Positions 40,167 to 47,764 of a stretch of DNA of 64,000 nt are shown piece after piece. A program made the translations under genes and the position numbers. Location: positions 1,054,001 to 1,118,000 of the forward strand of contig NZ_CP009526.1 in NCBI RefSeq assembly GCF_000969985.1, in the 5' to 3' direction. Positions within the stretch are counted from its first letter, which is position 1, and every line of letters starts with the position of its first letter. The notes beneath the pieces were generated by a model. That model was not told the DNA's origin, made no database searches, and saw only the letters and a list, made by a program, of their open reading frames with translations. Source of the stretch: Methanosarcina barkeri str. Wiesmoor. GTDB lineage: Archaea; Halobacteriota; Methanosarcinia; Methanosarcinales; Methanosarcinaceae.

Positions 40167-41619
40167 CATTGGTCATCGGTTAAGGATTTATTTCCTTCTT
40201 CTGTTACTCTTTTTGAATCCAATTTTTCATTTATTACTCAAACCATTCATCTCTAAACCTTTCTCTGTTTACATGAGGATCTAATGCTTGACTTTCATAT
40301 ACGCTCATTATCGTTTCAAAAGTTCTTTGAATTCCACATCTATGCAGAATTACTGTCAATAAATCTGATGCATTCTCTGCAAATATTGTACTCCAACGTA
40401 ACTGCGTATATCTAGCCATTTTTTCAGGATGAGTTGTTGATTTTCTGACAAGAGAATAGATTCTTCTGCTAACGATTAGTGTCAATATTGCTGTCCAGAT
40501 TAGAGCTTCAATTACCTGCACATTCTTTGTTTCAAGAACGTCCAGCGAGTATTTGCTTTTCAATTCCTTAAACAACAGTTCTATGTCCCATCTTGCCCCA
40601 TATAAGTTTGCAATGTCTTTTGCATTCAAAATATCTTTCTGAATATTTGTGATGTAAATGTGGTATTTTTCATCCTCATCGTTATATACGGCAACAAGGC
40701 GTACAATCATCTCGTCCTGTTTTTGCTTGCCTTTATACTCTCTTCTTTTGAATTCTATTTTTACAACTGCATCAATATCTTTTCCAGAAAGTTGCTTAAT
40801 ACATTCACTAACAGGTTTTCCAGCGAACTCTTTGCTTTTTGTCTTAGAAAGTTCCTCTTCAATAGAAACAAGAATAGGGTCCATATTCTTCCTAATCCTT
40901 GAGACAAAATATCCCCCATTTTCTTCAACTCTTGCAAACATTTGAGTTTTGTAGAAACCAAGATCAACAAGGAGAATATGGTCTTTGATCCAGGGACCTA
41001 TTTTTAATGTCTTTATCTCAGCTGTTTTTTCAGAGTACAGAGCAATGGTTCTAGGTCCGTTAGCAATTGCACTTACCATAACTCCAACTTTTACTCCTGC
41101 AGCTACTGTTCTTGATCTTGCTGCAGGAAACCTGTCTGCTAACGAGGAATGGAGACGAACAATTGTGCTGTCCTGAATGACAACATCTTGGAAGGTTTCG
41201 AGTTTCTTGCTAAGTTTCCTACCAGGTTCTTTTGCAAGCTCTTCCATGCCATGAATTACACACTGGTGAAGAAACTCAACAAGTTCTGGAGTAAAACGAT
41301 AGTACCAGCTGCTATCACTTATGGTTTTTTGTGACTCAGTTTCATATTCTCGTTTTAAACTGGCAAGTGTACGCTGCAAGCGTACACCAAAACTGAGAGT
41401 TAAAACCCAAAAGATAATGACAGGGTCAATTTTACGTTCACGTACTATAAGACCAGTTTCTTTGGCAGTTTGCCTTAACCACTCTTCGGGAAACATTTCC
41501 CGAAGAGAGTCTTCAAGAGTAGGTGGGGGACAAGGAGACATAGATACAGAGATATTTAGATTATTAATATAAAAAACACATACAAGAGAGGGAATTTAAT
41601 GCTTAACCGATGACGCATG
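40167..41619 (-). mobile_element. Complete IS4-family (ISH8-like) insertion sequence, 1,453 bp
   Basis: The ends are 18-base inverted repeats with two mismatches: CATTGGTCATCGGTTAAG on the left and CTTAACCGATGACGCATG on the right. The flanks carry a 10-bp duplication, AAATCACTAT. The only gene is the transposase at 40234-41541. Ten-base duplications fit the ISH8 subgroup of IS4. All parts are intact, so the element may be active. Confidence 0.92.
40234..41541 (-). CDS. IS4-family transposase
   Basis: 435 residues. DDE catalytic parts are visible: the first Asp in VIQDSTIVRL, the second in LLVDLGFYK, and the Y-(2)-R-(3)-E-(6)-K signature in YGARWDIELLFKELK. Full length and uninterrupted. It cuts and joins the element ends on DNA. 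Starts at an ATG about 80 bases inside the right end. Confidence 0.93.
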   Translation of the reverse strand: MSPCPPPTLEDSLREMFPEEWLRQTAKETGLIVRERKIDPVIIFWVLTLSFGVRLQRTLASLKREYETESQKTISDSSWYYRFTPELVEFLHQCVIHGMEELAKEPGRKLSKKLETFQDVVIQDSTIVRLHSSLADRFPAARSRTVAAGVKVGVMVSAIANGPRTIALYSEKTAEIKTLKIGPWIKDHILLVDLGFYKTQMFARVEENGGYFVSRIRKNMDPILVSIEEELSKTKSKEFAGKPVSECIKQLSGKDIDAVVKIEFKRREYKGKQKQDEMIVRLVAVYNDEDEKYHIYITNIQKDILNAKDIANLYGARWDIELLFKELKSKYSLDVLETKNVQVIEALIWTAILTLIVSRRIYSLVRKSTTHPEKMARYTQLRWSTIFAENASDLLTVILHRCGIQRTFETIMSVYESQALDPHVNRERFRDEWFE

Positions 41620-45871: not shown

Positions 45872-46260
45872 ATAGAACCTTTCAGAGGAAGCTTTGAACG
45901 GAGTTATTTGTTATTATTCAGGAATAGTCGACAGTCCCTTCAAATTTCTGCAAAAACCGAACTAATGGCTTATAAATAAGAAGCATTGAAAGGGTATTTT
46001 CTTTTACTTTGGAGATATTTTAGCTTTCTAATTTTTATAAATCTATTACTTTTAATCTATATTGGCAAAAATATTTTCTTAATGGGGAATTTGCTAACTA
46101 CAGCTTTTGAAGAAAAATCCATATATTTCAAGGGATTTATTTGTTCTGTGTTTTGCTCACATTCTCTGCATGTGTTTTGATGTATAATCAACAAAAAGAT
46201 ACGTTTCGTTCAGTATGCCAAATTATTTTTAAATGTTTGTTAAAGCATAGGAGATTTTTG

Positions 46261-46749
46261 ATGAATGATATTCTTTTTAGGACTGAGAACTGGATATTCA
46301 GCTACCGTGTTGCAGGGATAATGATACATAATAACAAAGTGCTCCTGCAAAAGCCAACAAATGATACTGGGTTTGCTTTTCCCGGAGGACATATCTCATT
46401 TGGCGAAACGAACGCGGAAGCATTAATCCGTGAATTCAAAGAAGAAATTGGCGCGGACATTTCGATAACTGATCTTAAATGGGTTGCCGAGATTTTCTTT
46501 CCATGGGGCGAAAAGCCATGCCACCAGATATGTAATTATTATCAGGTGACTTTGACTGATAAAACGCAAATTCCGCTGGATGGACAGTTCATTAGTTCGG
46601 AGCATCTTGAAGGCAGAGATTTTACCATAGAGTTTCACTGGATTCCCATTGACAGTATGAATGATATCGAGGTCTACCCAACGAATGCGGCAGAATTGCT
46701 TAGCTTATTAGGCGAAGGTGTGCAGCACTTTGTATACCGGGAGGGATAG
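46261..46749 (+). CDS. Nudix hydrolase
   Basis: 162 residues. The Nudix box GHISFGETNAEALIREFKEE followed by IGA matches GX5EX7REUXEEXGU, with FPGGH just before it. Hydrolyses a nucleoside diphosphate linked to another group; the substrate is not evident. The ATG at 46261 follows TAGGAG. It abuts the truncated DUF234 ATPase fragment, so it sits where that gene's ATPase domain should be. Confidence 0.88.
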   Translation: MNDILFRTENWIFSYRVAGIMIHNNKVLLQKPTNDTGFAFPGGHISFGETNAEALIREFKEEIGADISITDLKWVAEIFFPWGEKPCHQICNYYQVTLTDKTQIPLDGQFISSEHLEGRDFTIEFHWIPIDSMNDIEVYPTNAAELLSLLGEGVQHFVYREG

Positions 46750-46750
46750 C

Positions 46751-47764
46751 TTATGAGTTTTGCAAATTTGCACCACTTAATAATGAAGTGAGGGACATCC
46801 TGATAGAAGAATTTGGGAAGGAGCACTCAACATATTATGAAATAATTTCAGCAATATCGCAGGGCAGATGCTCGATGAGCGAGATCTCGGATATGACACA
46901 TGTCTCTTCTAGCTCATTGTCACCTTATTTTTACGACCTTATAGACCTGCTGGGAGTAGTGGAACCTAGATTCGGCAGGTCGACATAAGGAATTTGAATA
47001 TTTTTCCTGATATCGTTTTTGAATATTTGATAAATATACATTGGATTTAAAGCTGGTTAACGTGTGGCTCAACTCCCACGACGCATATAAACACTAAATC
47101 ATTTTTCCATTAAAGTTTAGTATAAGATATTATGTTTGGATCATATGTAAACTTCACAACTACACACAATAAGGGATCATCATTTCAAAATTGCCATCAG
47201 TAAAAAGTATCGAAAATGAAATGTCGACCTGCCGAATATAGGGTGGAACACCGGATTCCTGTCACGGACAGTCCTGAAAAAAGCAAGAGAGGACGGTATT
47301 TCCTGAAAGATAATTTCTTCAGGTTCTATGGCCGCTTCGTATATCCTATGTACAGCCAGTATATGGCAGGCAATTATTCTCCTATGCTGGAAAAGGTTCG
47401 GAAGGAATGGCAGAGTTACACAGGCAAGATATTCGAGGATATTGTTCGTGAACTGCTGGTTAAAAAGATGATCAGCGATTATCCGGATATTGGGAGCTGG
47501 TGGAACAGGAAGAGGGATGAGATTGATATTCTTGGAGTAAATCGCCAGGGGAGAAAAGTTCTGGCAATTGAGGTCAAGAATAAAGAACTGGGTGAAAGCG
47601 AGGCCAGAGAAATCCTGGAGTTGACGCTTGATAAAACAAAATTAGTAAAAGGGATATCTGGTCAGGAATTGAAAGTAGGGATAGTGGCCAGAAAGGTCAA
47701 AGGCAGAGAACGCCTGGAAGGCGATGGATTCCTTGTATGGGAACTGGAAGAGCTTATTCCATAA
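46751..47764 (+). pseudogene. DUF234-type archaeal ATPase, 5'-truncated and split by a MITE
   Basis: Two fragments of one gene. 46751-46964 reads EVRDILIEEFGKEHSTYYEI to YDLIDLLGVVE, the winged-helix part. 47249-47764 reads HRIPVTDSPEKSKRGRYFLK to the DUF234 nuclease-like domain (DEIDILGVN, VLAIEVKNKEL). Deleting 46965-47242 plus one target duplication joins GVVE to HRIPVTD in frame. The N-terminal P-loop ATPase domain is missing; the frame runs back into the Nudix gene end. A truncated product from 47216 is possible but unlikely. Confidence 0.85.
46965..47242. mobile_element. 278-bp MITE inserted in the DUF234 gene
   Basis: Ends are 22-base inverted repeats with one mismatch; the inner 17 bases, ATTCGGCAGGTCGACAT, are perfect (46970-46986 and 47221-47237). 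GTGGAA occurs on both sides (46959-46964 and 47243-47248) as a target duplication. The interior is AT-rich and non-coding. No full-length parent element is in the window. Confidence 0.85.

Follow-up and report, generated by a model that had tools for sequence, protein, structure and literature searches.

Two MITEs of Methanosarcina with IS1634-family partners are the closest described counterparts of the element reported here. Table 4 of PMC3852290 lists a M. barkeri MITE of 247 bp with 23 copies (IR 20, DR 6) whose partner is ISMba11 (IS1634), and a M. acetivorans MITE of 249 bp with 15 copies (IR 18) whose partner is ISMac10 (IS1634), and the same paper describes other archaeal MITEs as resembling their partner ISs at the borders only. 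Archaeal MITEs are touched on only briefly in a review of the prokaryotic ones from 2024 (PMC10969869). A peptide of a Methanosarcina IS1634 transposase binds PCNA (PMC4549789).

A preliminary description of the window (our term for the whole 64,000-nucleotide stretch of DNA that was analysed) had reported a 278-bp MITE with 22-base inverted ends and a flanking GTGGAA duplication, the whole spanning 46959-47248. On rereading the sequence we found all of these coordinates to be right. The features of the element, which we assign to a family designated I, and of the gene around it are as follows:

46141-46749, + strand: unrelated NUDIX-domain gene, in place of the ATPase half of the host gene
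46767-46964, + strand: part of the host gene remnant that precedes the MITE; its first base marks the start of homology to the full-length ATPase_2-DUF234 gene
46959-46964, no strand: target-site duplication GTGGAA, left copy; a single copy stands at the empty site of orthologues
46965-47242, + strand: 278-bp MITE (family I), with no internal ORF of at least 60 aa
46965-46986, + strand: left terminal inverted repeat, CCTAGATTCGGCAGGTCGACAT
47001-47020, + strand: left subterminal block, TTTTTCCTGATATCGTTTTT, lying 36 nt in from the tip, common to MITE families II and III
47187-47206, - strand: degenerate subterminal block of the right end, TTTTTACTGATGGCAATTTT, lying 36 nt in from the tip, read from the sequence and the 59-nt arms
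47221-47242, - strand: right terminal inverted repeat, CCTATATTCGGCAGGTCGACAT
47243-47248, no strand: target-site duplication GTGGAA, right copy, read from the sequence
47249-47764, + strand: host gene remnant after the insertion, DUF234 domain (PF03008)

In the window sequence the inverted ends pair at 21 of 22 positions, which agrees with the single mismatch noted before, and arms as long as 59 nt still match at 73%. The ORF list holds no frame of at least 60 aa lying wholly within the 278 bp, leaving the element with no capacity to encode a transposase. Terminal inverted repeats, a target-site duplication, shortness without a transposase and many dispersed copies, the features by which MITEs are recognised, are all present.

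Seven other Methanosarcina genomes hold the host gene unbroken at the exact insertion point. When the flanks in the window are joined, the sequence from 46767 to the gene end aligns without interruption with all seven (88-94% identity), and each of the empty sites shows one GTGGAA (GTAGAA in L185, the most distant) followed directly by CACCGG or CACCGA. The 278 bases are therefore an insertion; they form coding sequence in none of these orthologues. The earlier view that the event was recent is also borne out.

The comparison of the 278 bases with Methanosarcina genomes that had been proposed yielded 13 end-to-end copies with 73-100% identity, plus one partial copy, in the element's own genome, whose two contigs amount to 4.9 Mb. 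Of the 30 other genomes of the genus, 24 gave matches. Outside Methanosarcina there were only a few family I matches, weak and short. Among the matches listed, most of the other contigs with the MITE tip were labelled Methanosarcina or Euryarchaeota MAG, and a search of viral contigs for the tip gave no match. Exact 6-bp flanking duplications border 36 of the 64 intact copies (distinct copies in the genus with both tips), against a chance level of 0.45% obtained from swapped flanks, and a further form, an exact 5-bp duplication, borders 9 of the 64. The preferred target is NTNNAN, with T at position 2 and A at position 5 in 60 of 72 symmetrised sites. Three copies in the element's own genome (L002, L008 and L011) are without a clean duplication, as expected of old or recombined copies. 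Taken together, the copies, the duplications and the empty sites confirm that 46965-47242 is an inserted MITE and not a chance arrangement of sequence.

Several other elements were encountered along the way. A shorter, asymmetric MITE of ~237 bp with tips GGTCGACAT and GGTAACTTG occurs in several species (L119, L123, L124 and L129), at L119 in the form of inverted neighbours; partial matches (1-171) in G015, considered as a possible IS, were rejected as such and are this shorter MITE. MITEs also lie within or adjoining IS1634 transposase genes at L159 (G017:C71), L268, L277 and L318, and the transposase locus L159 harbours two different MITEs. Elsewhere in the window, an IS4-family transposase gene with an intact ORF occupies 40234-41541 (NF033592 at 251 bits).

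We consider it very probable that family I is a non-autonomous MITE moved in trans by a DDE transposase of the IS1634 family, specifically of the 1.7-kb ISs with CCTANATTCGGCAGGT tips that we label group A. The element's own genome has many IS1634-family transposase genes, and the intact IS1634 element L064 (1729 bp, G000:C2:775861-777589; NF033559 at 392 bits) has tips CCTAGATTCGGCAGGTAAACAT and CCTATATTCGGCAGGTTAACGC and a 6-bp duplication, GTATAT. Its close relatives in other species have identical anatomy, and 6-bp duplications also flank the partner-type ISs L135 (CTGTAT) and L138 (TTCTAT). The CCTANATTCGGCAGGT tip is common to the MITE and L064; the first 16 bases of the MITE tip equal those of intact group A ISs, whereas bases 17-22 differ (AAACAT or TAACGC in the ISs, CGACAT in the MITE). 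The end CCTACTTTCGGCAGGTCGACAT, equal to the MITE tip, was found at L339, an IS1634 remnant in a related MAG whose transposase is 84% identical to that of L064. This is the remnant's own end, it includes GGTCGACAT, the exact MITE tip, and it lies beside the transposase start; the exact tip therefore belongs to IS1634 group A. Pieces of group A transposase were also present in 6 of 120 tip-bearing contig stretches, among the matches listed.

The statement that the parental transposon is absent from the window holds, and can be extended: the parental type exists elsewhere, as an IS1634 element in the same genome and as a relative, L339, with the exact tip. The search for an autonomous element with matching ends recovered L064 with its CCTANATTCGGCAGGT tips and the L339 remnant. 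No complete autonomous element in which both ends carry GGTCGACAT turned up in ~45 IS1634 loci from the genus or, among the matches listed, in the 120 tip-bearing contig stretches. Only the ends of the MITE align with group A ISs, and its interior does not. The unalignable interiors lower the likelihood that the MITE derived from such an IS by internal deletion and leave its mobilisation by the IS unaffected.

An inner T-rich box is located at tip+33 in group A ISs (at one end) and at tip+32 in the MITE. On these similarities a group A transposase is the likely mover and the inner box likely has a role in the process. In the mechanism we propose, the transposase would recognise the MITE tip, and probably also read the T-rich box ~33 nt within it; the MITE would have moved and been inserted at an AT-rich NTNNAN site by a 6-bp staggered cut, repair of which would yield GTGGAA/GTGGAA. 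The site that was hit is in an ATPase_2-DUF234 gene, now 5'-truncated, whose remaining frame the insertion divides. Alternatively, a different transposase, unsampled or extinct and sharing the tip core by chance, could have been the mover in place of the present group A enzymes. The divergence of intact group A ISs at tip bases 17-22 is what such a mover would predict, and the inner block past TTTTTC is absent from the ISs examined; L339, however, is a group A IS1634 element and did carry CGACAT, and the core tip, the duplication size and the spacing of the inner box all agree with group A. We regard this alternative as improbable and retain group A as the likely source of the transposase.

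The host gene has suffered a second lesion. In relatives the intact gene encodes ~470 aa, with an ATPase_2 domain (PF01637) followed by DUF234 (PF03008), as in the orthologue L178. Homology in the window copy begins only at ~46767, and the N-terminal ATPase_2 half is absent. The segment 46000-46766, which includes the NUDIX gene, was unmatched in the 30 other Methanosarcina genomes, and window positions 45952-45986 match G014 sequence immediately 5' of the ATPase gene. The gene that harbours the MITE is thus a 5'-truncated remnant and not otherwise intact. Joining 46964 to 47249 gives a single open frame (...LLGVVE-HRIPVTD...), and the earlier claim that removal of the element restores the reading frame is correct as regards an uninterrupted DUF234 frame (GVVE + HRIPVTD) but does not extend to a working gene: since the ATPase half is missing, excision restores the DUF234 half only. 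An in-frame ATG at 47216, contributed by the MITE, opens a predicted 182-aa ORF over that half.

Codons unique to the host remnant comprise 10 synonymous and 3 replacement changes, similar to intact relatives, and there is no sign of the long pseudogene drift that we also considered. Because the unique replacement changes are no more numerous than those of intact relatives, both the insertion and the truncation appear to be recent. The two lesions affect one gene and are ~200 bp apart, which could suggest that the ATPase half was lost through the MITE insertion itself, for example by an adjacent deletion. Clean duplications flank the MITE on both sides, however, and the truncation point, 46767, precedes them by 192 bp and adjoins the NUDIX segment, not a MITE end; we consider such a loss very unlikely. 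Finally, it is scarcely credible that the 278 bases are not mobile but an insert kept or domesticated for a function (a spacer, an RNA or a regulatory element), since the strong hairpin potential of both strands (z = -4.7 and -6.0) is accounted for by the long inverted ends, which give such a fold, and since, despite an interior conserved among copies, an Rfam search of the MITE matched no family, the seven orthologues align across the site without the element, and copies with duplications lie at unrelated sites.

The subterminal block extends beyond family I. Allowing two mismatches, the 20-bp sequence TTTTTCNTGATATCGTTTTT occurs 66 times in the element's own genome and its reversed form 0 times, and it is far rarer outside Methanosarcina. 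At 44 of the 48 sites read, an IS1634-type tip lies outside the block at a nearly fixed distance (32-37 nt). These tips fall into three classes, TTCGGCAGGTCGACAT (the family I MITE), TTCCGCAGTA and TTCCGCAGAT, and every class corresponds to the tips of a separate IS1634 group of the genus. Two further MITE families (II and III, about 240-252 bp) carry the block, one of ~240 bp with TTCCGCAGTA tips and one of ~250 bp with TTCCGCAGAT tips; they occur genome-wide in G000 (for example L352, L361, L363, L368 and L372).

At many IS ends a T-rich box (TATTTTTC-like) stands at an equal distance from the tip. The sequence NTGATATCGTTTTT that follows the box in the block is absent from the ISs examined, as are the last 14 bases of TTTTTCNTGATATCGTTTTT, beyond TTTTTC. 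Because the ISs carry the T-rich box at this distance, the first half of the block may be an inner site for the transposase; the other half presents a small puzzle. A tentative and on balance unlikely reading is that the block, common to three families at a fixed distance, is a functional module that was kept as the accompanying tips were swapped to follow diverging transposases. Such a module could be, for instance, a site for a host protein or an accessory transposase that helps MITEs to compete.

The insertion is in itself ordinary genome wear. It offers a clean case in which sister species show the empty site and a likely mobiliser can be named, and it defines a MITE family present in the majority of the Methanosarcina genomes that were searched. 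The common block is less expected and, if functional, would offer a testable way into how archaeal MITEs retain or change their transposase partners.

Compared with the MITEs of PMC3852290, family I is alike in genus, size class, inverted-repeat length, IS1634 partner and similarity to that partner at the ends only, and it shares the 6-bp duplication with the published 247-bp M. barkeri MITE; it differs in length (278 bp vs 247 and 249), families I-III having been compared with the published entries by description only. With the IS1634 ISs (NF033559) the family I MITE has in common the tip CCTNNNTTCGGCAG, the 6-bp duplication and an inner T-rich box near tip+33. It departs from them in lacking a transposase gene, in tip bases 17-22, which do not match those of the intact IS1634 ISs of its own genome, and in a 20-bp inner block that is absent from the IS1634 ISs examined. 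IS1634-linked MITEs with 6-bp duplications have already been published for Methanosarcina, and the placement of family I as an addition to this known type is well supported.
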